This document shows, piece by piece, positions 10,690 through 47,143 of a DNA stretch of 64,000 bases. The notes beneath the pieces were generated by a model. That model was not told the DNA's origin, searched no databases, and saw nothing but the letters and a program-made list of their open reading frames with translations. A program made the position numbers and the translations under genes. The stretch is taken from contig NZ_KI912266.1 in assembly GCF_000235425.2 (NCBI RefSeq), positions 3,477,671-3,541,670 of the forward strand. Reading direction: 5' to 3'. Position 1 is the first letter of the stretch, and each line of letters opens with the position of its first letter. The DNA is from Pseudofrankia saprophytica (GTDB taxonomy: Bacteria > Actinomycetota > Actinomycetes > Frankiales > Frankiaceae).

Positions 10690-11727
10690 GTGGGACGCGC
10701 GATTGTTTTCAACGGTGATGGGACCTGGGAGGAGCGGGAGTTGCCGGTTCCCGATCCCCAGCCGGGCGGCGCCGTGCTCCGGGTCGAGGCAACAGGGCTG
10801 TGTCACGGCGACGTCGACCAGTTCCACGGTGTCGGCCGCACGCCCCGGGGCGGAGCTTTCCCCGTGATCCCGGGACACGAGATCGTCGGGCGCATCGAGA
10901 AGATCGACCGGCGGACGGCCGAGGACTGGGGAGTCACCGAAGGCGACCGGGTCGCGGTCCGGACCATCATCATCAAACCGGATGGTGGCACCCGCGCCTA
11001 CGGGATCGACTTCTCGGTGAACGAGGGCTCCGGCCTGTACGGCGGCTACGCCGAATACCTGGAACTCCTGCCCGGCTCGGCGGTCTACCGGCTGCGCGAG
11101 GACCTCCCCGCGGCCGAACTCACGATCTTCGAGGCGTTGTCCTCGACCGTGACCTGGGTCCGCCCCGTCAAAGAAGGCCACACCGTCGTCGTTGAGGGGC
11201 CCGGCCACATGGGCCTGGCCACCGTGGTCGCGGCCCGCGCCGCCGGCGCGGGCACCATCGTCGTCACCGGGCTGACCCAGGACCAGTCCCGGCTCGACTG
11301 CGCGCTGCGGGTGGGCGCCGATCACGTCATCGACGTCCAGAAACAGAACGCGACCGAACGCCTCGCCGACCTGACCGGCGGCCGGATGGCCGACGTCGTG
11401 ATCGACGCGTCGTCGGGATCCTCGCAGACAGTCAACGTGGCGATGGATCTCGTCGGTCGAGGCGGCACGATCGTCGTCGCCGGCTTCAAAGACAACCCGG
11501 TGAACGGACTGGACAGCAACCAGTTCGTCTTCCGGCAGATCACCATGCAAGGCGGCGCCGGGCTCGACGCCGCCCACGCAGTCCAGCTCATCAACGACGG
11601 CAAGGTACCGACCGCCGAACTCGCCGGCGAGACCTTCCCCCTCGATCGCTTCGAAGACGCCTTCGCTCTCCTGGACCGCCGTGTCGCCGGCCGCGACGCG
11701 GTGCGCGTCTCGCTGCAACTCTCCTGA
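10690..11727 (+). CDS. Zinc-dependent medium-chain alcohol dehydrogenase
   Basis: A 345-residue MDR protein from GTG 10690 with AAGGGAG upstream. Catalytic-zinc ligands are visible in GLCHGD and PGHEIVG. The four-Cys structural-zinc lobe is absent and replaced by a segment reading RTIIIKPDGG. The cofactor domain contains VEGPGHMGLATVVAARAAG (Rossmann turn) followed by an Ala/Gly-rich helix. It oxidises an alcohol or reduces a carbonyl with NAD(P)(H). The position between an NADP-binding protein and a SnoaL-like protein suggests one catabolic or detoxifying pathway. Confidence 0.85.
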   Translation: MGRAIVFNGDGTWEERELPVPDPQPGGAVLRVEATGLCHGDVDQFHGVGRTPRGGAFPVIPGHEIVGRIEKIDRRTAEDWGVTEGDRVAVRTIIIKPDGGTRAYGIDFSVNEGSGLYGGYAEYLELLPGSAVYRLREDLPAAELTIFEALSSTVTWVRPVKEGHTVVVEGPGHMGLATVVAARAAGAGTIVVTGLTQDQSRLDCALRVGADHVIDVQKQNATERLADLTGGRMADVVIDASSGSSQTVNVAMDLVGRGGTIVVAGFKDNPVNGLDSNQFVFRQITMQGGAGLDAAHAVQLINDGKVPTAELAGETFPLDRFEDAFALLDRRVAGRDAVRVSLQLS

Positions 11728-11794
11728 ACGCCCACCGAGCGAATCCGAACGATCTTCCGCTACAGGCCGCCGGCAACGGCGCGAGGAGGAATAG

Positions 11795-12226
11795 ATGGAC
11801 CTGCAGGCGCTGTCCGACAAGATCGAAATCCACGAGCTGCTCGCCCGCTACGCACGGAGCTGTGACTTGAGGGACTGGGAGCTGTTCAGGACGTTGTTCA
11901 CCGAAGACGCGTTCCTCGACTACCGGTCAGTGACCTCAGCCGTCGGTTCCCGCGACGAGGTCGCGGCGTGGCTGGAGGCGAACCTCAGCAAGACGCCGAT
12001 GACGCAGCACTTCATCAGCAACGTCGAAATCGACCTCGACGGCGACAGGGCGAAGGTGCTCGCCATGTTCTACAACCCGATGCAGCTGCCAGGGATGCCC
12101 GAGATGAGCTACTGCGGCGGCTACTACCACCACGACATGGTCCGCACCCTACAGGGATGGAAAAGCGAACGGCTCGTCGAGGAGAACAAATGGTTCGTCA
12201 ATCACCCAGCCGCCCCTGACGCCTGA
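11795..12226 (+). CDS. SnoaL-like (NTF2-fold) protein
   Basis: A 143-residue protein with a GAGGAGG ribosome-binding site before ATG 11795. The start DKIEIHELLARYARSCDLRDWE and the middle TLFTEDAFLDYRS are the usual pattern of SnoaL-like polyketide-cyclase/dehydratase relatives. Such proteins form small cone-shaped alpha+beta barrels that act as isomerases, dehydratases or binding proteins. It is the last gene of the plus-strand run and is followed by a hairpin. Confidence 0.8.
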   Translation: MDLQALSDKIEIHELLARYARSCDLRDWELFRTLFTEDAFLDYRSVTSAVGSRDEVAAWLEANLSKTPMTQHFISNVEIDLDGDRAKVLAMFYNPMQLPGMPEMSYCGGYYHHDMVRTLQGWKSERLVEENKWFVNHPAAPDA

Positions 12227-12304
12227 CGTAACTGAGCGAGGTCAAAGCGATGAGCTAACCGCCTGCATGCCGGTGACTTCGAATCGGTCTGGGCGCAGCC
12301 CAGT

Positions 12305-12326
12305 GGCGGCCGGACAATCGGCCGCC
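12305..12326. terminator. Hairpin between convergent genes, likely terminator
   Basis: GGCGGCCG-gacaat-CGGCCGCC is an 8-bp perfect stem with a 6-base loop between the convergent SnoaL-like and DUF2255-like genes. No U-tract follows, as is common in high-GC actinobacteria. Confidence 0.55.
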
Positions 12327-12405
12327 GGCGAGTGGGCTGGAGGACAGTGTGCCCTTGCTCTGGCGCTGCGTCGACGGGCTCACGCGCGGGCGGTTCTGGC
12401 TGCGG

Positions 12406-12789
12406 TCAGGGCCGTGGCAGTAGCCGGATCGTCACTTCGGCGGCCTTGTCCCCGGTGACCGATCCGACGATCGCCGGGCCGTATCGGTCGTATTTGGCGT
12501 GGTAGGCCGCGTCAATGGCGGCCTGGGTGTCGGAGTCCGTTCCCGCGTCGGCGAACGAGACGTCGCGTTCTAGATCGCCGGCGCGGATGCGGCCCGCGCC
12601 ACTGGCTTTCGCCCTGCGGTACCACGGGTTGTCCGCACCGTAGGCCGAACGGACGTACACCTCGTCACCGGCCCGGACGACCCACATGGTCACGTATCGG
12701 CGCAGCGTGCTGTCGGCGCGCAGGGACGCGAGGCGCAGTTCCTCGGCCCGGCCGATGCGGTCGAGGTCCTCGGTGGTCCAGGTGCTCAT
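12406..12789 (-). CDS. DUF2255-family protein
   Basis: A 127-residue protein. The ATG at 12789 is chosen over an upstream in-frame start because AAGGAGG sits seven bases before it and the protein then begins at the family start (STWTTEDLDRIGRAEEL). The central segment RRYVTMWVVRAGDEVYVRSAYGADNPWYRRA resembles flavin-reductase/PNPOx-like split-barrel folds and is typical of DUF2255. Function is unknown; cofactor binding is plausible. It is first in a minus-strand group of redox genes. Confidence 0.75.
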   Translation of the reverse strand: MSTWTTEDLDRIGRAEELRLASLRADSTLRRYVTMWVVRAGDEVYVRSAYGADNPWYRRAKASGAGRIRAGDLERDVSFADAGTDSDTQAAIDAAYHAKYDRYGPAIVGSVTGDKAAEVTIRLLPRP

Positions 12790-12870
12790 CGTGCCTCCTT
12801 GGGCAAGGCCAGGTCGGTCTGTCACGCGTCGGTCAGCCTTCGCTGGCTGGCTCGACCGCCGGGCTCGGGT

Positions 12871-14797
<1,927 letters not shown>

Positions 14798-23207: not shown

Positions 23208-23226
23208 AAGAGGTGGGGTGGCGAGC

Positions 23227-23985
23227 ATGGGACGACTGGATGGCCAGGTCGCGCTGGTGACGGGCGCCGGCCAGGGCGTCGGACGGGGCATCGCGCATGC
23301 GCTCGCCCGGGAGGGCGCCCGCGTGGCCGTGTCCGGCCGGCGGGCCGAACCCCTCGACACCGTGGTGAAGGAACTGGTCGACCTGGGCGCCCGCGCCCGC
23401 GCGCTCGCGGTCACGGGTGACGTCGGCGTGCGGGCCGACGCCGACCGGATGGCCGCGGCGACGGTCGCCGAGTTCGGCGCGCTGGACATCCTGGTCAACA
23501 ACGCGCAGTCCTCGGTCCAGGTCCGGCTCGAGCAGACCACGGACGCCGACGTCGAGCTCGCCTGGCGCAGCGGCGCTCTGGGCACGCTCTACTGCATGCA
23601 GGCCTGCCTGCCGCACCTGAAGGAACGCGGCGGCAGCATCGTGAACTTCGGCTCGTCCACGGGCGTCCGCGGCGACACCACCTTCGGCTCCTACGCGATG
23701 GCCAAGGAGGCCATCCGCGGCCTGTCCCGGGTCGCGGCCCGCGAGTGGGGCCGCTACGGCATCCGCGTGAACGTCATCTGCCCGACCGCGACGTCGCCCG
23801 CCGCCGAGGAGTATCGCGAGGCCAACCCCGAGCGCTTCGCGATGGTGATGCGGGAGATCCCGCTGGGCCGGTTCGGCGACCCCGAGACCGACATCGGCCG
23901 GGCGGTGGCCGCGCTCGTCAGCGACGACATGTCCTACCTGACGGGGGCGACCCTCATGCTCGGCGGCGGTCGCGAGGTCCAGTGA
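23227..23985 (+). CDS. Short-chain dehydrogenase/reductase
   Basis: A 252-residue classical SDR. ATG 23227 has better spacing to the AGAGGTGGGG site than the in-frame GTG three codons upstream. Motifs: TGAGQGVG for NAD(P), NNAQ (NNAG-like), catalytic Ser in VNFGSSTGV, Tyr/Lys in YAMAKEAIRGL, and a GGG ending. It is divergently transcribed from the DUF35/thiolase-like/synthetase run through the AT-rich promoter and probably serves the same pathway by oxidising a 3-hydroxyacyl or similar group. Confidence 0.9.
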   Translation: MGRLDGQVALVTGAGQGVGRGIAHALAREGARVAVSGRRAEPLDTVVKELVDLGARARALAVTGDVGVRADADRMAAATVAEFGALDILVNNAQSSVQVRLEQTTDADVELAWRSGALGTLYCMQACLPHLKERGGSIVNFGSSTGVRGDTTFGSYAMAKEAIRGLSRVAAREWGRYGIRVNVICPTATSPAAEEYREANPERFAMVMREIPLGRFGDPETDIGRAVAALVSDDMSYLTGATLMLGGGREVQ

Positions 23986-24045: not shown

Positions 24046-26562
24046 TCAGCTCGCCGTGTCGCCGGATGCCGCGTCGCCAGATGCCGCGCCGTCCGGCGAC
24101 GCGAGAGTGAGGCGAGCCTCCAGTACGGCCACGCCGCCGCCCTCGGGGAACACCCGCAGCGGCCGGATCGCCAGGTCGGTGACCCGCGGCAGGTCCTCGA
24201 CCAGCGCCGACACCCGCAGCAGCACGTCCTCCAGCGCGGCGACATCGCACCGCGGCGCTCCCCGCCAGCCGTCCAGCAGCGGGAAGGCACGTAGCGACCG
24301 TGTCATCTCCGGTGCGTCCCGGCTGGACAGCGGGGTGACGCGCAGCGCCACGTCGCCGACCAGATCCGCGTAGTCGCCGGCGAGCGCGAGGGTCACCACC
24401 GGGCCGAAGACCGGGTCGGTCGTCACGCCGACCGCGACGTCCACGGCGCCCGGCTCCTCGCCCGCGGCCGGTTGCCCGGCGGCCAATTGCCCGGCGGCGG
24501 GTTGTCCGGCGGCGGCGCGTCCGGAGACCGGGACTGGAATGCCGTAGCCGCGCAGCAGCGCCCGGACGGCGTCGGGACCGACAGGACCCGCCGGCTGGTC
24601 GTCGAGCAGCGCCCGGGCCGCCGCGCGGTCCGGATCGCGCGGAGTGATCACGACGCCGGCCGGGCTGCGCCGCCACGCGCCGTAGGCCGCGGCCGCGCCG
24701 AGCGCGGTGGCCGCCGCCTCGGGAAACACGTAGCTGGGGATCGCCCGTCCCTCGCGGCGCAGCAGCGAGGGCAGCCCCGACGCGGACAGGAAGCTCGTCA
24801 CGACCGGCTTGTCGGGCGCCGCCGCGGCCGCCGAGGCGATGGCCGCGGCGACCTCGGTGACGTGCCGGACCAGCGGTGGGACGTACAGGACGATCGCCGC
24901 GTCCACCGCCGGGTCGGCGAGCGCCGCTGTGAGGCTCGTCTGGTAGTCGGCGGCCGTCGCGGTCGGGCCGAGGTCCGCCCCAGCGTGCTCGGCGACGACC
25001 AACCCGCTCGCCCGGCACGCGTCGGCGGTCAGGGCGCCAGGGCCACCCGCGTTCGTGACGATCGCGACCCGGTTGCCGCCGGGCACCGGCTGGTTCGCGA
25101 GCAGCAGCGCGACGTCGAACATCGCGCCCAGCGAACGGGTCCTGATGATTCCCGACTGCTGGAACAACGCGTCCAGCGCGGTGTCGGCGCCGGTGACCGG
25201 CCGGGCGTCCCGCGTCGCGCCGCTGGCCCGGCCCGACAGCGTCGGCACGCCAGCGTGCACCGCGACGATGGGCTTGCGGGCGGCGATCCGCCGGGCGACG
25301 CGGGCGAACTTGCGAGGGTTCCCGAACCGGTCGAGGTGCAGCAGGATCACCCCGGTCGCCGGGTCCTCCTCCCACCACTGCAACAGGTCGTTGGTGGAGA
25401 CGTCCGCGGCGTTGCCGATCGACACGAAGCTGGCGAAGCCGAGGCCGAGCTGCTCGGCGTGCGTCAGCACCGCGAGCCCGAGCGGCCCGGACCGGCTCGA
25501 CATCGACACCGCGCCGGGCGGCGGGAGACGCGGCGCGAACGTGGCGAACACGGTCCGGTCCTCGATCCGGCTCACCAGGCCCATGCAGTTCGGCCCGACC
25601 AGGCGCATCCCGGCTGCCCGGGCGGCCTGGACGAGGCGTCGCTCCCGGGCCAGGCCGGCGGGCCCCGTCTCGCCGAACCCCGTCGACACCACGACCACCG
25701 CGCCCGCGCCGACGGTCGAGGCCTCCCGCACGACCTCCTCCACGCCCTCGGCGGGCACGGCGACGATGACGAGGTCCACAGGCTCCGGCAGGTCGCGCAG
25801 GCTCGGGAACGCCGGGACGCCCGCGATCTGGTCGGCATGGGGATTGACGGGGTGGACGGGCCCGCCGAAGCCGTGGGCGACCAGGTTGCGCAGGATCTCG
25901 TGGCCGATCGTCTCCGGCCGTCGTCCGGCGCCGACGACGGCGATCGAGCGGGGTCGCAGGAGTGGCCGCAGCGACGAGCGGACCGCGACGTGCTCCCGCC
26001 GGTCGGAACGGGCCACGGTCTGGGCGCCCGGATCCGTCGCCATCGTCACGTGCACGACCGACCCGTCCCAGACCGTCTCGGTCCGGTACCCGGAGCCCGC
26101 GAAAGCACGCAGCATGCGAGTGTTGTCGGCGAGCACGTCCGCGGTCATGGTCGTGACGCCGCGGGCGCGGGCCGCCTGGGCGAGCCGTTCGAGCAGCAGC
26201 GCGCCGAGGCCGAGCCCCTGGAAGTCGTCCTCGATGGTGAACGTGGCCTCGCCCTGGTCGGGCTCCTCCGGCGCGCGCAGGCAACGGGCTCCGCCGATGA
26301 GCCGGGCGCCCAGGAAGGCGACGAGCGCGATGTGGTCGACCTGGTCGACGTCGGCCCAGGCGCGCAGGGTCCCGTCGCTGATCCGCACCACCGGGCCGAG
26401 CAGCCGGTAGGAGATCGTCCGGCGGGAGAGCCGGTTGCCGAACGCGGTCAGGGCTTCGGCGTCGTCCACGTGGATCGGCCGGACGAGCACCGACCGGCCG
26501 TCACGTAGCAGCCCCGGCCGCTCCCACGAGGAGGTCACCCTGTCCTGCCTCATCGCCGCCAC
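24046..26562 (-). CDS. Pat-like lysine acetyltransferase: N-terminal GNAT plus inactive-looking ADP-forming acyl-CoA synthetase domain
   Basis: An 838-residue protein. Residues about 15-180 are a GNAT acetyltransferase (acetyl-CoA loop region FQGLGLGALLLERL). From about 200 follow the CoA-binding and ligase domains of NDP-forming acyl-CoA synthetases (SIAVVGAGRRPETIG, LVGPNCMGLVS, VTNAGGPGAL). The usual phospho-His segment (SHTGALAG-type) reads RDARPVTGAD, so the catalytic His is missing. The first lobe of the C-terminal ATP-grasp domain is replaced by a short AAGQPAAGQL-type repeat. Pat/PatZ enzymes likewise have dead synthetase domains that act as sensors, so a role in acetylating acyl-CoA synthetases is likely. 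Confidence 0.88.
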   Translation of the reverse strand: MAAMRQDRVTSSWERPGLLRDGRSVLVRPIHVDDAEALTAFGNRLSRRTISYRLLGPVVRISDGTLRAWADVDQVDHIALVAFLGARLIGGARCLRAPEEPDQGEATFTIEDDFQGLGLGALLLERLAQAARARGVTTMTADVLADNTRMLRAFAGSGYRTETVWDGSVVHVTMATDPGAQTVARSDRREHVAVRSSLRPLLRPRSIAVVGAGRRPETIGHEILRNLVAHGFGGPVHPVNPHADQIAGVPAFPSLRDLPEPVDLVIVAVPAEGVEEVVREASTVGAGAVVVVSTGFGETGPAGLARERRLVQAARAAGMRLVGPNCMGLVSRIEDRTVFATFAPRLPPPGAVSMSSRSGPLGLAVLTHAEQLGLGFASFVSIGNAADVSTNDLLQWWEEDPATGVILLHLDRFGNPRKFARVARRIAARKPIVAVHAGVPTLSGRASGATRDARPVTGADTALDALFQQSGIIRTRSLGAMFDVALLLANQPVPGGNRVAIVTNAGGPGALTADACRASGLVVAEHAGADLGPTATAADYQTSLTAALADPAVDAAIVLYVPPLVRHVTEVAAAIASAAAAAPDKPVVTSFLSASGLPSLLRREGRAIPSYVFPEAAATALGAAAAYGAWRRSPAGVVITPRDPDRAAARALLDDQPAGPVGPDAVRALLRGYGIPVPVSGRAAAGQPAAGQLAAGQPAAGEEPGAVDVAVGVTTDPVFGPVVTLALAGDYADLVGDVALRVTPLSSRDAPEMTRSLRAFPLLDGWRGAPRCDVAALEDVLLRVSALVEDLPRVTDLAIRPLRVFPEGGGVAVLEARLTLASPDGAASGDAASGDTAS

Positions 26563-26655: not shown

Positions 26656-27441
26656 TCAGTCGATGAACGGCGACGGCGGACGCAGGTCGCCGAGGCGGCC
26701 CGTGGTGTAGGTGAGCCAGCGGTCGTAGTCGGTCGCCTTGTTCCGGAACGACGAGCCCACCTGTGGGTTCGGCAGGATCAGGAAGTTCTCGGCCGCGAGC
26801 CCCGCGACGGTGATCTCGGCGACCTCGGCCGGTGTCTGCACCAGGCCGATCCCCGGGAGGTCGGCGCCGCTGACGGTGCGCGTCTCGACCGCGGTCGGGC
26901 ACAGGCACGACACCCGGATGCCCTTGTCCGAGTAGTTGATTGTCAGCCACTCAGCGAAGCCCAGCGCGGCGTGCTTGGTGACGGTGTAGGCCAGCTCCGA
27001 GGGTCCGGTGATCAGTGCCGCCGCAGAGAGCGTCTGCAGGAAGTAGCCGCCGCCGCGGCGCAGCATCCGGGGCACCAGGCACTGCGCGGCCCAGACGTGG
27101 GCGAGCACGTTGACCCGCCACGACCGGTCCCAGGTCGCCGCGCTGGTCTGCAGGTTGCCGCCCTCCGGCCCGCCGAACACCGCCGGGTTGCCGCAGAACA
27201 GGTCCGTCGGCCCGGCAGTCTGTTCGGCCCAGTCGATGAACGCCGTCAGTGCCGCCTGATCGCCGACGTCGCACGGACGCCCGGGGACGCCGAGCGTCTC
27301 GGACATCGCCGAGACGGCCTCGGTGTCCAGGTCGCTGACGACCACCGACCGGGCGCCGTGCGCCAGGAACGCCTCGACGAGGCCGCGGCCTATGCCGTGC
27401 GCCGCGCCCGTCACCACGATCCGGCTGCCTTCGATCTTCAT
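26656..27441 (-). CDS. Short-chain dehydrogenase/reductase
   Basis: A 261-residue SDR. TGAAHGIGRGLVEAF for NAD(P), Asp pair in VVSDLDTEA suggesting NAD preference, catalytic Ser in LQTLSAAALI and Tyr/Lys in YTVTKHAALGFAEW. The NNAG motif reads GNPAV, a deviation from the classical form. It is divergent from the next SDR and shares an upstream region of about 120 bases with it. Confidence 0.88.
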   Translation of the reverse strand: MKIEGSRIVVTGAAHGIGRGLVEAFLAHGARSVVVSDLDTEAVSAMSETLGVPGRPCDVGDQAALTAFIDWAEQTAGPTDLFCGNPAVFGGPEGGNLQTSAATWDRSWRVNVLAHVWAAQCLVPRMLRRGGGYFLQTLSAAALITGPSELAYTVTKHAALGFAEWLTINYSDKGIRVSCLCPTAVETRTVSGADLPGIGLVQTPAEVAEITVAGLAAENFLILPNPQVGSSFRNKATDYDRWLTYTTGRLGDLRPPSPFID

Positions 27442-27562
27442 GGCCGTCTCCGCATCGCCGTAGGGCCTGTCCGGACAATCCTCTCAGGTGGTGGCAGCGA
27501 ATGCCATCGTGGCAGACTCTGCCATGAGCGACGCGACTGGTGCGCCGCGAGGGGAGGCGACG

Positions 27563-28333
27563 GTGGGTCTGGCGGAACTGTTCGACCTGGAAGGCCGGGT
27601 CGCGGTGGTGACCGGCGGCAGCCGCGGGATCGGTTACGCCGTCGCCCGCGGCTTCGCCGCCGCCGGCGCCGACATCGTCGTCGCGAGCCGCAAACTGGAC
27701 GCCTGCCAGGCCGCCGCCGAGCGGATCGCGAAGGAGACCGGCCGCCGGGCGGTTCCTCTTGGCTGCCACGTCGGGCGCTGGGCGGACTGCGACCGCCTGG
27801 TCGACGAGGTCTACGCCGCGTTCGGCCGCTGCGACGTCCTGGTCAACAACGCCGGGATGTCCCCGCTCTACCCGGACCTTCCCAGCGTCACGGAGGACTA
27901 CTTCGACAAAGTCGTCGGGGTCAACCTCAAGGGGCCGTTCCGGCTCGGCGCGCTCGCCGGTGCCCGGATGGCGGCCGCCGGCGGCGGCAGCATCATCAAC
28001 GTCTCGACGATCGGCTCGCTGCGCCCCGGCGCCGACGAGCTCGTCTACGCCTGCGCCAAGGCGGGCCTCAACGCGCTGACCATCGGGCTGGCGGAGGCCT
28101 ACGGGCCGGCGGTGCGCTCGAACGGCATCCTGCCCGGCGCCGTGCTCACCGACATCGCCGACGCCTGGACCCCCGAGCGCCGCGAGCAGGCGGCGCGCGC
28201 CACCACCCTCGGCCGCGCCGGTACCGCCGACGACTTCGTCGGCACCGCCCTGTGGCTCGCGAGCCCCGCCTCCGCATGGGTCAGCGGCACCCTCATCCGC
28301 GTCGACGGCGGCGCATACCGGCAGACCAGCTAG
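27563..28333 (+). CDS. Short-chain dehydrogenase/reductase
   Basis: A 256-residue classical SDR. The GTG at 27563 is chosen because GGGGAGG lies six bases upstream and the protein then starts at a family-typical position (LAELFDLEGRVAVVTGGSRGIG); two earlier in-frame starts exist. Motifs NNAG in VNNAGMSP, Ser in INVSTIGS, Tyr/Lys in YACAKAGLNALT, and VDGG at the end. It leads a run with the acyl-CoA dehydrogenase and phosphotransferase. Confidence 0.9.
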   Translation: MGLAELFDLEGRVAVVTGGSRGIGYAVARGFAAAGADIVVASRKLDACQAAAERIAKETGRRAVPLGCHVGRWADCDRLVDEVYAAFGRCDVLVNNAGMSPLYPDLPSVTEDYFDKVVGVNLKGPFRLGALAGARMAAAGGGSIINVSTIGSLRPGADELVYACAKAGLNALTIGLAEAYGPAVRSNGILPGAVLTDIADAWTPERREQAARATTLGRAGTADDFVGTALWLASPASAWVSGTLIRVDGGAYRQTS

Positions 28334-30848: not shown

Positions 30849-33800
30849 ATGGACGAGCGGGCAACGGTGCCGGGCCGGGATCCGTTGCTGGCTGCGCGGG
30901 TGACGGTGCTCCATGAGACGGAGCGGACCCGGGTCGTTCGGCTGACGTTCCCGGGCGGAAGCGTGATCCGCAAGGAGCTGCTGGGGCCCGGCGCGCGGCG
31001 GCGGCAGCGGCATGAGGTGGAGATCCTCGGTCAGCTGTCCGGTGTCGAGGGAGTCACGCAGTTGGCGACCGGGCTGCCGTCGTCCCCGGACTCGATCCTG
31101 CTGGCCGATGTCGGCGGTGTGGCGCTGTCCGAGCGGACTACTCCGCTGGATCCGGTCGAGCTGGTCGGACTGGCCGGGTCGCTGGGGCGGGCGATGGCGG
31201 AGATGCACCGGCGGGGGGTGGCGCATCGGGACGTCAATCCGGCGAACATCGTGATGACTGATGGCGGGGGAGCGCCATGCCTGGTCGATTTCTCGCTGGC
31301 CACCACGTTCGCGGTGGTTCAGCCGGAATTCGTACATCACAGCGAGATCGTGGGAACGGTGCCGTATTTGGCGCCGGAGCAGACTGGCCGGACTGGTTGT
31401 CACGTCGACCAGCGGGCCGATCTGTACGCGCTCGGGGCGACGCTGTACGAGCTGGCCACCGGGGCGCCGCCGTTCGGTGCCGGTGATCCTGTTCAGGTCA
31501 TTCACGACCATCTGACGCGGGTGCCGGCGCCGCCGTCGGCCGTGAACCCGGCGGTGCCGGCCGGCCTGTCGGCGATCATCATGCATCTGCTGGAGAAGGA
31601 GCCGGACGATCGCTACCAGAGCGCCGACGGACTGGTGCACGATCTCACCTTGGTACGTCGTGGCGCCTTCTTGGTGCATCCAGGCGAGCACGATTTCCCC
31701 GCACGGCCACTGACGCCATCCCGGTTGGCCGGGCGTGACCAGGAGATCCGCGAGCTGGGCGTGGCGTTCGCCGAGGCGATGGAGGGTCGCTGCCGCGGGC
31801 TGCTCGTCGGCGGTGCGCCGGGGGTGGGCAAGACGGCGCTGGTCAACGAACTGCGGCCGATCGTGGCCGGTGCCGACGGCTGGTTCGTGGCGGGCAAGTT
31901 CGACCAGTATCGCCGTGACCAGGAGTACGACGGGGGCTGGCAGGCGTTCCGGGCGCTGGGCCGGCTGTTGCTGGCCGAGCCCGAGCAATACCTGGCCGAG
32001 GTGCGGGAGCGGATACTGCTGGCGTTGGGACCCAGCGCCGGGCTGGCGACCGCCACCGTGCCGGAGCTGGCGGCGCTGCTGAAGGTCCCCCCGGATCCGG
32101 GCGATCCGATGACCGCGCAGGTGCGAGCGCTGCGCAACGGAGTCGAGGTCCTGCGCGCCGTCGCCTCCAGGAAACGGCCGGTGGTGTTCTTCGTCGACGA
32201 CCTGCAGTGGGCCGGGCGGACTCCGCTGGGCTTCGTCGATCTGATCCTCAGCGGCGCCGAACAGGTCGAGGGACTGCTGCTGGTCGGCGCCTACCGGGAC
32301 AAGGAGGTCGACCCGGCTCATCCGATGACGCCGATGCTCGCCCGCTGGCAGCGCCAGCCGGCCGGTCCGCGCATCGTGCGGCTGGGCAACCTGACCCCGG
32401 ACGGCCAGATGGCCATGGTTGCAGACCTGGTGCGCGTCGCGCCTGAGGCCGCCGCGGAGCTGGCGCGGATGATCGCGCCGTCGGCCGGTGGCAATCCGTA
32501 TGACACGCAGGAGCTGCTGAACTCCTTACGCCACGACGGTCTGCTCGTCGCTGGCGTCGGCGGGTGGCGATGGGATCGGGCGGTGCTGGATCGCCGGCTC
32601 GGGCGGGTGGATGTGGCCGGGATGCTGGCCGCTCGGGTGGCCGGGCTGCCGTCGGCGACCAGGCAGGTGTTGGCGGTGATGGCGTGTCTGGCGGGCCGGG
32701 TGGAGCTCGACCTGTTGGAGGTCGCGGCGGGGCTGGCCACGGAGGATGTCGAGCACCGGCTGGGCCCGGCGTTCGCCGCCGGCCTGCTGGTGCTCGAGCC
32801 TGGCGGCGGGCAGGGGGTGCGGTTCCACCACGACCGGACATGGGAGTCCGTGCTGGGCGCCCTCAGCCCGCGGCGGCGGCGTGGCCTGCGACTGCGGCTG
32901 GCCCGGCGGCTGGCCGAGCGGGGCGAGTACTTCGCGGTCGCGGCCGAGCAGTACCTGCACGTGGTCGACGTGGTGCGGGACGACGCCGAGCAGCGGCTGG
33001 TGGCCGGGCTGTTCCAGCAGGCCGCCGAGCAGGCGCGGCTGCTGAGCAACCATCCGCTGGTGGAGCGGTTCCTGACCGCGGCGGTGCCGCTGGTCGACCC
33101 GACCGACACCGACCAGCTGATCGAGGTCCGCACCGGCCGGCACGCCGCCCTGTACAGCCTGGGCCGGTTGGAGGAGGCGGACGAGGAATACCGGAACGTC
33201 AGTCGGCTGTGCACCCGCCCGGCGCAGCGCACGGCGGCCACCGTGCTGCAGGTGATCAGCCTGACCAACCGGGGCCGCGCCGAGGAGGCGGTCCGGCTCG
33301 GCGTGGACCAGCTGCGCGAGGTCGGTTTCGCCGTGCCGGACCGGGAGCGCCTCGACGCGGAGATCGACCGAAGACTCGACGCGGTCTACCGGTGGATCGA
33401 CCAGTCCAACGCATCCGACGACCTGTGCCGCCCGGAGGGCACCGACCGTTCGCGACTGGGCATCATCAAGCTCATCAACCGGCTCATCCCCGCGGCGTTC
33501 CTCTGCGACCGGCCGATGATGGCCTGGCTGACCGCGACGGCGCTGGAGATGTGGGCACGGGACGGACCGGATCCCGCCCTGATCGGCCCGACCAGCCACG
33601 CCTCCGTCCTGACCACGGCCCTCAGGCACGACTACCGCACCGGGCACCGCATCATGCGGCGCCTTCTCCAAGTCGGTCACGCACGCGGCTACGAACCGGA
33701 CATCTGGCAGATGCAGTTGATGTATGCGGTCTTTACCGGCCACTGGTTCGACCCGCTCGAGGACAACCTGTCCGCCGCGCGTCGCGCACTGGAGGGCCTG

Positions 33801-35765
33801 CTCCAGGGCGGCGACCTGCAGTACGCCTGCTGGACCCATGTCGTGCTGCTGCCGGACCTGCTGGACTGCGGCCCGTCGCTGGACGCCTATGTCGCCGGTG
33901 CCGACGAGGCGATGGCTATCGCCACACGCACCGGCAACGGATACGCCGAAGAGGTGTTCCGGCCCTGGCGCCAGCTGGCGAGGGTGCTGCGTGGCGAGGC
34001 CGTCGGCCAGGCGGCCGACGAGGCGGCCGAGCAGGGCCTGCTGGCCGCCAACCCGCTCGCCGCCGCCAACATGCACCTCACCCGGGCGCTCGCCGCCGCC
34101 ATCTTCGATCATTCGGCCGAGCTGGCCCGGCACACAGCGGCGGTGATGCGGTTGCTGCCGGTCCTCGAAGCGACCTACCTGATCGCGGTCGCGCGCGTGT
34201 TGCGGGCTCTGGCCCTGACCGGGCAGGCCCGGACGACGGAAGCGGGCCGGCGCGGGGCCGTGCTGGCCGAGCTGGACGAGGTGGTCGACTGGCTGGCCGC
34301 CCGCGCGGCCGACGCGCCGGTCAACTTCCTGCACCTGTTACGCCTGGTCGAGGCCGAACGGGCCTGGGCGGCAGGTGACTTCCGGGAGGCCGCGTACACC
34401 TATGACCTGGCACAACGTGAGGCCGCCACCCGCACACGCCCCTGGCACCGGGCACTGACCTTGGAACGCGCCGCACGGTTCCACCTCGCCCAGGGCATGG
34501 AGGAAACCGGCCGCATGCTGCTCGCCGCCGCCCGCCGCCAGTACGCCGACTGGGGCGCCACCGCCAAGGTCAGCCAGCTCGACTGGGCTTACCCGGCGCT
34601 GGCGGCCGAACCCGCCGGCGCCGAACCCGCTGCGCGAGCACCAGCCCAACCCACCACGGGCAGCCCCGCCGTCACCACCGGCACCATCGACCTGCTCGGC
34701 GTCGTCGCCGCCTCCCAGGCGCTGAGCTCCGAGACCAGCATCGAGGGCCTGCGCGCAAAGGTCGTGGGAATCCTGTCCGAGATGACCGGCGCCACCGGCG
34801 TCCACCTCCTCCTTCGCGACCAGGACGACAACGATGGCGGCTGGCTGGTACCCACCGACGACGGCGCCATCCCCCTGCGCGAGGCAGGCCTGCGCCGCCT
34901 GCTGCCGCCCTCGGTCGTCTGGTACACCGAACGCACCCACGAACCCACCGTCATCGCCGACGCCACCCGCGACGACCGATTCGCCCGCGACCCCTACCTC
35001 ACCAGCCTCGACCGCTGCTCCCTACTCGCCATCCCCCTCACGATCCGCGGCGAACTCAAAGCCATGCTCCTGCTGGAGAACCGAATGATCCGCGGCGCGT
35101 TCGCCACCAACCGCCTCGAACCGATCATGCTCATCGCCGGGCAGCTCGCCGTCTCCCTCGACCACGCCCAGGTCTACGCCTCCCTGGGGCGCAAAGTCGC
35201 CGAACGCACCCACCAACTCGCGGCCGCCAACCAACGCCTGGAACAACTGTCCATCACCGACCCCCTCACCGGACTGGCCAACCGACGACGCCTCGAAGAA
35301 GTCCTCCACGCCGAATGGCACCAGGCCTGCCATCAGCGCACCCCCCTCGCCGTCGCCATGACCGACATCGACTACTTCAAGCGCTACAACGACCACTACG
35401 GCCACACCGCCGGCGACCGCTGTCTCCGACTCGTTGCCGCATGCCTGGCCGACAACACCCGCGACACCGACCTCGCCGCCCGCTTCGGCGGCGAGGAGTT
35501 CGCCATCGTCATGCCCCACACCGACACCGACACCGCCGCCCGCGTCGCCCGAGACCTACGCGACGCCGTCGCCGCGCTCGCCGAACCACACCCCCTCGGC
35601 ATCGACCACATGATCACCCTCAGCATCGGCGTCGCCGCCACCATCCCCACCACCGACAATCAGCCACAAAGCCTGATCGATCTCGCCGACGTCGAGCTTT
35701 ATCGAGCCAAGCGTGCCGGACGCAACCGCGTCGAGGTAGCACACCCACACCCCGCGTCGCTATAG
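30849..35765 (+). CDS. Multidomain signalling protein: Ser/Thr kinase, AAA ATPase, helical repeats, GAF and GGDEF diguanylate cyclase
   Basis: A 1638-residue protein with no obvious membrane segment. Residues 20-275: protein kinase with Lys 42 (IRKEL), catalytic HRDVNPANI (Asp 128), DFS for DFG (Asp 147) and APEQTGR. Residues 290-560: AAA-type ATPase, Walker A GGAPGVGKT (321-329) and Walker B VVFFVDD (445-451). About 590-1260: helical TPR-like region. About 1296-1440: GAF sensor. The last 170 residues: GGDEF domain with active RFGGEEF (about 1546) and an I-site RDTD just before it. The kinase-AAA-GAF layout is known from cyanobacterial and actinobacterial sensors; ending in a c-di-GMP synthase is less common. 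Confidence 0.93.
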   Translation: MDERATVPGRDPLLAARVTVLHETERTRVVRLTFPGGSVIRKELLGPGARRRQRHEVEILGQLSGVEGVTQLATGLPSSPDSILLADVGGVALSERTTPLDPVELVGLAGSLGRAMAEMHRRGVAHRDVNPANIVMTDGGGAPCLVDFSLATTFAVVQPEFVHHSEIVGTVPYLAPEQTGRTGCHVDQRADLYALGATLYELATGAPPFGAGDPVQVIHDHLTRVPAPPSAVNPAVPAGLSAIIMHLLEKEPDDRYQSADGLVHDLTLVRRGAFLVHPGEHDFPARPLTPSRLAGRDQEIRELGVAFAEAMEGRCRGLLVGGAPGVGKTALVNELRPIVAGADGWFVAGKFDQYRRDQEYDGGWQAFRALGRLLLAEPEQYLAEVRERILLALGPSAGLATATVPELAALLKVPPDPGDPMTAQVRALRNGVEVLRAVASRKRPVVFFVDDLQWAGRTPLGFVDLILSGAEQVEGLLLVGAYRDKEVDPAHPMTPMLARWQRQPAGPRIVRLGNLTPDGQMAMVADLVRVAPEAAAELARMIAPSAGGNPYDTQELLNSLRHDGLLVAGVGGWRWDRAVLDRRLGRVDVAGMLAARVAGLPSATRQVLAVMACLAGRVELDLLEVAAGLATEDVEHRLGPAFAAGLLVLEPGGGQGVRFHHDRTWESVLGALSPRRRRGLRLRLARRLAERGEYFAVAAEQYLHVVDVVRDDAEQRLVAGLFQQAAEQARLLSNHPLVERFLTAAVPLVDPTDTDQLIEVRTGRHAALYSLGRLEEADEEYRNVSRLCTRPAQRTAATVLQVISLTNRGRAEEAVRLGVDQLREVGFAVPDRERLDAEIDRRLDAVYRWIDQSNASDDLCRPEGTDRSRLGIIKLINRLIPAAFLCDRPMMAWLTATALEMWARDGPDPALIGPTSHASVLTTALRHDYRTGHRIMRRLLQVGHARGYEPDIWQMQLMYAVFTGHWFDPLEDNLSAARRALEGLLQGGDLQYACWTHVVLLPDLLDCGPSLDAYVAGADEAMAIATRTGNGYAEEVFRPWRQLARVLRGEAVGQAADEAAEQGLLAANPLAAANMHLTRALAAAIFDHSAELARHTAAVMRLLPVLEATYLIAVARVLRALALTGQARTTEAGRRGAVLAELDEVVDWLAARAADAPVNFLHLLRLVEAERAWAAGDFREAAYTYDLAQREAATRTRPWHRALTLERAARFHLAQGMEETGRMLLAAARRQYADWGATAKVSQLDWAYPALAAEPAGAEPAARAPAQPTTGSPAVTTGTIDLLGVVAASQALSSETSIEGLRAKVVGILSEMTGATGVHLLLRDQDDNDGGWLVPTDDGAIPLREAGLRRLLPPSVVWYTERTHEPTVIADATRDDRFARDPYLTSLDRCSLLAIPLTIRGELKAMLLLENRMIRGAFATNRLEPIMLIAGQLAVSLDHAQVYASLGRKVAERTHQLAAANQRLEQLSITDPLTGLANRRRLEEVLHAEWHQACHQRTPLAVAMTDIDYFKRYNDHYGHTAGDRCLRLVAACLADNTRDTDLAARFGGEEFAIVMPHTDTDTAARVARDLRDAVAALAEPHPLGIDHMITLSIGVAATIPTTDNQPQSLIDLADVELYRAKRAGRNRVEVAHPHPASL

Positions 35766-45646: not shown

Positions 45647-47143
45647 GTGTCGAGTGTAGATCGTCACGGTGGCCGGCCGGAGACCCGGGTGGACGTGCGC
45701 GCCGGAACCTGGTCGGCGCTGGTTGCCGAAGCCAGGCCGCGGACGCAGGAAGCGGTCGTCGGTACCGCCGACCGGTGGAGCCGCGCAGACCTCGCGGACC
45801 GGGTGAACGGCGTCGGCGCCTGGCTGACCGGCCTGGCGCTTCCGAGCGGCCGGCCGGTTCCCGCCCTGGTCGCGGACACCGGTCCCGCGCTGGCGCTCGT
45901 CATCGCCGGCGCGGCGACTGGCCGGCCGATCGCGCCGCTCGGCGCCCGGCTCACCGTGACGGAGCTCGCCGAGATCGCGCGCGGCCTGGCCAGCGGCGTC
46001 CTGCTCGCCGAGGCCGGCCTCGTGCCGCTGGCCGCCGAGGTCGCGTGGGCCGCCGGCAGCCAGCTCGTGGTGCTGCCAGACCCGTTGCCGCCCGGCGGCC
46101 CGCGACTGCCCGCCCCGGAGGCCGACGACGTGGCCATGGTGCTGCACACCTCCGGCACGACCGGGGCGCCCAAGGCCATCGCCCTGCGGCAGCGGGCACT
46201 CGCCGCCCGCGTCCGGGCCTACCGGTCCGTCGTACCGCTCGGGCCCGGGGACAGGTTCGTGACGGCGGCCGGGTTCCACCACATCGCCGGGCTGGGCAAT
46301 CTGGCGGTGGCGGTGGCGGCGGGTGCGACCGTGGTCTCGTTCCCGGCCTTCTCCGTCGACGCCTGGCGGGCGCTCGCGCCCTTGGGTGTGACCCACGCCC
46401 TGCTCGTCCCCACGATGATCGAGATGCTCCTCGCCGCCGATGCGCTGGCGCTGCCCGCGCTGCGATGGATGCAGTACGGAGCGGCACCCATCCATCCCGA
46501 CACGCTGCGCGCGGCGCTGGCCGCCCTGCCAGGCGTCCGGCTGGCCAACCTGTTCGGCCAGACCGAAGGATCGCCCCTGTGTGTGCTGACGGGCGAGGAC
46601 CACCACGCCGCTGTCGCCGGTCAGCCGGAGCTGCTCTCGTCCGTGGGCCGGGCCGCTCCGGGCGTCGCGCTGCGCATCGAGAGCGCCGACACGGACGGCG
46701 TCGGTGAGCTGTGTGCATGTGGCGACCACGTGTTCGCCGCTGACGCGGACGGTTGGCTACGCACCGGCGACCTCGCGCGTATCGACGCGGATGGCTACGT
46801 CCACCTCGCCGGCCGGACCGGGGACACGATCAACCGAGGCGGCGAGAACGTCCGCCCGGTGGAGGTCGAGACGCTGCTGCGCAGCCATCCCGCGGTCTCG
46901 GACGCGGCCGTCGCGGGCGTACCCGACCGGCGCCTCGGGGAGGAGGTCGCAGCCTGGGTCGTGCCCGTCGACACGAACAGTCCGCCGAGCGAGGAAGAGC
47001 TGACCGGCTACCTGCGGGCCCGGCTCGCCGGGTTCAAGGTTCCTCGACGTTGGGCTTTCGTCGAGTCCCTGCCCCGCGGCGCCGCGGGCAAGTTGTTGCG
47101 TCGAGCCCTGGCTGACATGGCTGCGCCCACTTCGCAGGGCTGA
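45647..47143 (+). CDS. AMP-forming acyl-CoA synthetase/ligase
   Basis: A 498-residue adenylate-forming enzyme with canonical motifs, unlike the one at 19779: MVLHTSGTTGAPKAIAL, NLFGQTEGSP, WLRTGDLARIDADGY, and the C-terminal Lys in GAAGKLLRRAL. It activates a carboxylic acid to the CoA ester as the likely entry step of this catabolic block. It is divergent from the dienoyl-CoA-reductase-like enzyme and followed 55 bases later by a SnoaL-like gene. Confidence 0.92.
   Translation: MSSVDRHGGRPETRVDVRAGTWSALVAEARPRTQEAVVGTADRWSRADLADRVNGVGAWLTGLALPSGRPVPALVADTGPALALVIAGAATGRPIAPLGARLTVTELAEIARGLASGVLLAEAGLVPLAAEVAWAAGSQLVVLPDPLPPGGPRLPAPEADDVAMVLHTSGTTGAPKAIALRQRALAARVRAYRSVVPLGPGDRFVTAAGFHHIAGLGNLAVAVAAGATVVSFPAFSVDAWRALAPLGVTHALLVPTMIEMLLAADALALPALRWMQYGAAPIHPDTLRAALAALPGVRLANLFGQTEGSPLCVLTGEDHHAAVAGQPELLSSVGRAAPGVALRIESADTDGVGELCACGDHVFAADADGWLRTGDLARIDADGYVHLAGRTGDTINRGGENVRPVEVETLLRSHPAVSDAAVAGVPDRRLGEEVAAWVVPVDTNSPPSEEELTGYLRARLAGFKVPRRWAFVESLPRGAAGKLLRRALADMAAPTSQG

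Follow-up and report, generated by a model that had tools for sequence, protein, structure and literature searches.

Which functions can a Pat-like acetyltransferase of Pseudofrankia saprophytica retain when its acyl-CoA synthetase module lacks half of the ATP-grasp domain, and is this half missing through damage or as part of a recurrent design? The gene lies within a stretch of 64,000 nucleotides, referred to here as the window. Its parts are as follows.

24046..26562 (-): whole gene, type II GNAT acetyltransferase, 838 aa (ORF, Pfam, GC3, dN/dS)
26035..26520 (-): GNAT acetyltransferase domain, residues about 15-176 (Pfam and 4u5y fold match)
25573..25950 (-): CoA-binding domain (CoA_binding_2), residues 205-330 (Pfam, E 1.9e-30)
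25102..25518 (-): succinyl-CoA-ligase-like domain (Succ_CoA_lig), residues 349-487 (Pfam, E 2.9e-41)
25195..25245 (-): former phospho-His loop, residues 440-456, without His, disorder predicted
24454..24543 (-): linker, residues 674-703, at the place of the relatives' ATP-grasp N-lobe (alignment; pLDDT <50 at 681-701)
24460..24513 (.): 15-bp tandem repeat, 3.7 copies, encoding AAGQP-like repeats in the linker, absent in the G006 orthologue
24103..24453 (-): retained ATP-grasp lobe 2, residues 704-820 (Pfam, 4xz3_D fold match)

The reading frame starts with GTG, with an ATG three codons in, and its GC3 of 0.93 gives it the codon composition of a real gene; a promoter and terminator scan found none. 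The Pfam domains, an N-terminal GNAT domain followed by an NDP-forming acyl-CoA synthetase-like module without the catalytic His, are those of the type II GNAT architecture described in the excerpt of PMC8556138, which agrees with the Pat-like identity proposed in the initial annotation. The GNAT domain is intact, as was also proposed: Glu105 aligns with Glu809 of PatZ, and the acetyl-CoA loop QGLGLG (115-120) fits the pattern Arg/Gln-x-x-Gly-x-Gly/Ala given in the same excerpt. The invariant residues of the CoA_binding_2 domain are retained. An NCBIfam search returned ten families, all below their own cut-offs, with the ADP-forming acetate-CoA ligase alpha domain at the top.

An AlphaFold2 model built with 50 sequences indicated a confident fold (mean pLDDT 87.8, pTM 0.89), in which the only segments with pLDDT <50, termini aside, were the old phospho-His loop (440-456) and the linker (681-701). 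The top Foldseek matches were the ADP-forming synthetase 8wzu and PatZ (9it0 and 9isq), and the beta subunit 4xz3_D matched over 114 columns with an rmsd of 1.0 A, as expected for lobe 2 alone. Using VIA-align, the model was superposed on the single-chain ADP-forming synthetase 8wzu (Z 43.8, 588 residues, 2.5 A), on apo PatZ (Z 35.9, 586 residues, 4.0 A) and on the S. lividans Pat GNAT domain 4u5y (Z 24.9, 164 residues, 1.4 A). These matches, being those of a predicted model, speak for folds and not for functions. The ADP-forming acyl-CoA synthetases 8wzu and Korarchaeum ACD1 (4xz3) are active enzymes that carry the His and a full ATP-grasp; the 838-aa protein resembles them in the fold of its CoA-binding, ligase and lobe 2 parts, while the two are opposite in that the synthetases have the His and the complete ATP-grasp and lack a GNAT domain. 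E. coli PatZ (type I; 9isq, 9it0) has the same domains and likewise no loop His, but its GNAT domain is C-terminal and its ATP-grasp is full. From S. lividans PatA, a type II GNAT according to the excerpt of PMC8556138 (GNAT structures 4nxy and 4u5y), the 838-aa protein differs by its missing ATP-grasp N-lobe.

Three elements of catalysis are absent from the module. The segment of the phospho-His loop reads GATRDARPVTGADTALDALF, no His occurs at residues 440 to 462, and the nearest one, His437, corresponds in relatives to the Lys of the VKSG strand and not to the phospho-His; the reported loss of this residue is thus confirmed, with no alternative His taking its place. The ATP-grasp_5 match (residues 704-820) covers only profile positions 107-221 of 221, so that 106 profile positions are absent. 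Measured as the number of residues between two fixed anchors, Y673 and D716 in the 838-aa protein, the N-lobe region spans 43 residues here and 99 in E. coli PatZ; the loss noted earlier therefore stands, whereas its size, put at about 110 residues, is nearer 90 by these anchors. In active NDP-forming acyl-CoA synthetases, the Asp and Asn of the D-x-N-P motif in lobe 2 are Mg ligands, and the corresponding columns read Ala and Arg in the 838-aa protein. An active enzyme of this kind has the SHTGA phospho-His, a complete ATP-grasp and the Mg-ligand Asp/Asn pair. Since all three are missing, established knowledge of such enzymes suggests that the module should not make acyl-CoA. A split ATP-grasp supplied in trans is not supported, since one search of the genome with PF13549 yielded no stand-alone N-half over the family cut-off. 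Its six matches were three full or nearly full domains, the half domain of the 838-aa protein, a weak nearly full one (40.4 bits, 438-aa frame) and one at positions 17-51 that stayed under the cut-off, within a 1113-aa frame.

The missing His had been read as a step beyond PatZ, which does not hold. Loss of the catalytic His is stated for type I and type II enzymes in the excerpt of PMC8556138, and is therefore expected in the 838-aa protein; the PatZ loop has no His either, and 51 of 146 sampled proteins fell in the no-His class, by crude classes in which, for example, L068 (SKHTAA) was put in "GH/other H". The unusual feature of the 838-aa protein is its missing N-lobe, not its missing His. 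Our literature search, restricted to open-licence papers, found no report of a lobe-less Pat and no paper on the PatZ structures 9isq and 9it0. In 37 of 146 type II GNAT proteins the lobe is kept together with SHT (or SHS) and the Asp-Asn pair, so that some of the type II modules may remain active as synthetases. L076, L078, L084, L085, L088, L099, L109, L112 and others are possible bifunctional acetyltransferase-synthetases, contrary to the statement that type II modules are inactive.

To place the gap among close relatives, 35 genomes of the family were searched, and close orthologues were found in G006 and G027, both without the lobe. The G006 orthologue, from a sister species of the same genus, is 80% identical and shows this gap too, likewise in frame and bridged by a linker of 26 residues; the match to it runs past the ORF end (L002 3933), and the TGA in that match is the gene's own stop. 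The G027 orthologue, from another genus, is 64% identical over residues 10-675, and its gene is split by contig ends within the linker, with no N-lobe sequence beside the flank of either piece. One piece, L064, is a contig-end fragment whose linker length is a lower bound, and the C-terminal piece, L065, was omitted from alignments and trees as too short. With the closest relatives lacking the lobe as well, simple damage of a single copy can be ruled out. The refuting condition named in the initial annotation, full-lobed close relatives that would expose a damaged copy, was thereby checked and decided in favour of that annotation. The AAGQPAAGQL repeat array, absent from the 26-residue linker of the sister orthologue, looks like a recent expansion inside this older gap.

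The gene order acyl-CoA dehydrogenase, SDR, SDR, 838-aa protein gene, SDR, an ORF and AMP-ligase is common to G006. The two genes next to the acetyltransferase are:

26656..27441 (-): SDR gene, upstream, same direction, 93-base gap, neighbour in G006 too
23218..23985 (+): SDR gene, convergent, neighbour in G006 too

Neither of these two SDR genes had a match on the two G027 contigs; the acyl-CoA dehydrogenase, one SDR (27488-28333), the AMP-ligase and part of the ORF do occur there, at a distance of kilobases from the GNAT gene. Among seven other genomes of the genus only G006 has the orthologue, and the gene is therefore dispensable in most of the genus. Also in the window, 30849-35765 (+) encodes a 1638-aa protein with protein kinase, AAA_16, GAF and GGDEF domains.

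Selection was estimated by the Nei-Gojobori method. Against G006, dN/dS was 0.295 overall, with 0.383 in the GNAT domain, 0.305 in the CoA-binding domain, 0.263 in the ligase domain and 0.250 in lobe 2, compared with 0.102-0.219 in five neighbouring genes; against G027, it was 0.442 overall and 0.618 in the GNAT domain. These values indicate that the gene is under purifying selection, yet less constrained than its neighbours, with the GNAT domain the least constrained part.

We then asked how widely the N-lobe is missing. The anchor distance was bimodal: among 66 type II proteins, the 838-aa protein included, it was 24-43 residues in 10 and 89-104 in 56, and in a second set of 80 it was 24 in one (L123) and 87-97 in 79, so that lengths fall at either 24-43 or 87-104 residues. 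The 11 lobe-less proteins of 146 are not an unbiased frequency, since L058, L059 and L060 were chosen for match coordinates that already suggested a missing lobe. So was L165, added later, whose sequence bore out the absence; it brings the lobe-less proteins found to 12, the 838-aa protein included. These proteins all retain lobe 2 (that of G027 on the second contig piece); most of them were found through matches spanning lobe 2, which favours proteins that keep it, and the statement that lobe 2 is always kept therefore holds for these 12 only. Six duplicate loci were removed before the comparison of 66 proteins; L148 was counted with a neighbouring ORF (10725-13451) instead of the matched one and was omitted from A2, which comprises P0001 and 49 of the 80 loci of the second set.

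In trees from which the lobe columns had been excluded, the lobe-less proteins were scattered over more than one clade: the starred branches force at least 6 changes among the 66 rows and at least 8 in a larger tree of 116 rows. Constraining all 10 together cost 567 log-likelihood units (AU p 0.00107), and constraining L001, L002, L064, L058, L068, L069 and L059 together cost 59 (AU p 0.00314), in both cases for groups named after the data were seen and with several rows on long branches, L060 and L165 most of all. Judged by SH-aLRT alone, with supports printed after re-rooting, the 116-row tree places L123 as sister to the lobed L103 (support 100), L067 beside a lobed group (93), L059 with the lobed L019 (96) and L165 with the lobed L152 and L079 (98). 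A single ancestral loss (AU p 0.001) is rejected on these grounds, with the caution that post-hoc groups and long branches impose. Repeated loss is the simplest reading, as a lobe once deleted is unlikely to be regained, and the N-lobe appears to have been lost on several occasions among related bacteria. Nor need it follow loss of the His, since lobe-less L123 retains SHTGAL and DFNP, and lobe-less L059 and L165 retain SHT. L123 (8001-10418), a type II GNAT from an Actinomycetes MAG known from one contig of low coverage, is a case of the lobe lost with the His in place.

The usual Pat target is the C-terminal GK lysine in a P-x4-G-K motif, and the neighbouring acyl-CoA synthetase and SDR genes had been called natural targets of acetylation. 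The adjacent ligase is:

19779 to about 21371 (-): AMP-ligase, PtmA2-like, start inferred from the onset of conservation

It is closest to PtmA2 (5upq, E 1.3e-211), for which background was taken from the excerpt of PMC6594144. The C-terminal GK lysine is absent from this ligase in all three genomes compared (here and in both orthologues), which rules it out as a canonical target and makes it a poor one, so the proposed role of the neighbours is not upheld. Besides the lysine of the C-terminal GK motif, the one usual in the SGTTG-type motif is missing too, as expected for a non-adenylating ligase. PtmA2 is presumably the non-adenylating one, in line with the cited title. A second ligase of the window, 45647-47143 (+), has HTSGTTGAPK and PRGAAGK, is a normal-looking AMP-ligase, and is possibly the adenylating, PtmA1-like partner; its G027 orthologue (L064 3-923) lies about 1 kb from the PtmA2-like gene. 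Elsewhere in the genome, two acetyl-CoA-synthetase-like proteins carry PKTRSGK; that at G000 C1:2722754 exceeds the Acs cut-off, and that at C1:978063 falls below it. By these motifs, the 45647-47143 ligase or either PKTRSGK protein is a better candidate target than the PtmA2-like ligase. On contig 2, about 2 kb separate the full-lobed paralogue L062 (3831-6551, -) from an acetyl-CoA-synthetase-like gene (G000:C2:8385-10046, +; below the Acs cut-off), in which the GK pattern found no lysine motif.

We infer that the 838-aa protein is probably a working type II GNAT lysine acetyltransferase whose synthetase module, dead as a catalyst, serves as a CoA-thioester sensor blind to nucleotides. The GNAT domain would acetylate a lysine of a metabolic enzyme, and the module would bind CoA or acyl-CoA in its CoA-binding domain and relay that state, with binding at residues about 200-490 shifting the position or assembly of the GNAT domain. 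Since the N-lobe is absent, ATP or ADP could not be clamped, and the sensor would read the CoA-thioester state alone. Lobe 2 may be retained as a structural or assembly element, which is the weakest step because the mode of search favours its presence. We counted against this explanation the looser dN/dS, the patchy presence in the genus, the flanking SDR genes unmatched in G027 and the apparently recent linker repeat.

Some of the same observations suit a decaying gene, in which the function of the module is lost, erosion is ongoing and the GNAT domain is to follow: the protein evolves faster than its neighbours, up to 0.618 in the GNAT domain against G027, its presence in the genus is patchy and the repeat in its linker has expanded. 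We consider this improbable. Against the initial description of decay stand an ORF that is open in G000, G006 and both G027 pieces, the kept G006 gene order, dN/dS below 0.4 in every domain against G006 and, in other branches, a lobe missing cleanly and in frame. Equally improbable is a reading in which the substrate of the GNAT domain is not a protein lysine but a small molecule, or an intermediate of biosynthesis, from the local cluster; the PtmA2-like ligase, SDRs and acyl-CoA dehydrogenase do suggest a dedicated acyl pathway, and the usual lysine is missing from the adjacent ligase, but the closest solved GNAT fold is the S. lividans Pat domain, complexed with the C-terminal domain of acetyl-CoA synthetase according to the entry title, and enzymes with PKTRSGK are encoded elsewhere in the genome. 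A somewhat better case, though still an unlikely one, can be made for the module as a structural scaffold that serves oligomerisation or substrate docking and no longer senses a ligand. PatZ, SePat and SlPat are reported to oligomerise in the excerpt of PMC8556138, and the 12 lobe-less proteins retain lobe 2, though most were found through matches spanning it; the conserved residues of the CoA-binding domain and its dN/dS of 0.305, however, are expected if CoA still binds and needless for a scaffold.

The exact role of the synthetase module in Pat-type enzymes "is not completely understood", according to the excerpt of PMC8556138. Under the preferred reading of a nucleotide-blind sensor, we suggest tentatively, at somewhat less than even confidence, that the nucleotide-clamping N-lobe has been cut out repeatedly in type II GNATs, most of them actinobacterial, with the rest kept, which turned these modules into pure CoA-thioester sensors that ATP and ADP do not reach. 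Such deletions would map the Pat sensor to the CoA-binding and ligase domains and lobe 2, and full-lobed Pats may read nucleotides as a second input. Independent natural loss of one half of the ATP clamp would allow nucleotide binding to be told apart from CoA sensing and assembly with no engineering, with the full-lobed paralogues L061 and L062 of the same genome as ready controls, and could show which part of the sensor of Pat-type enzymes really matters.
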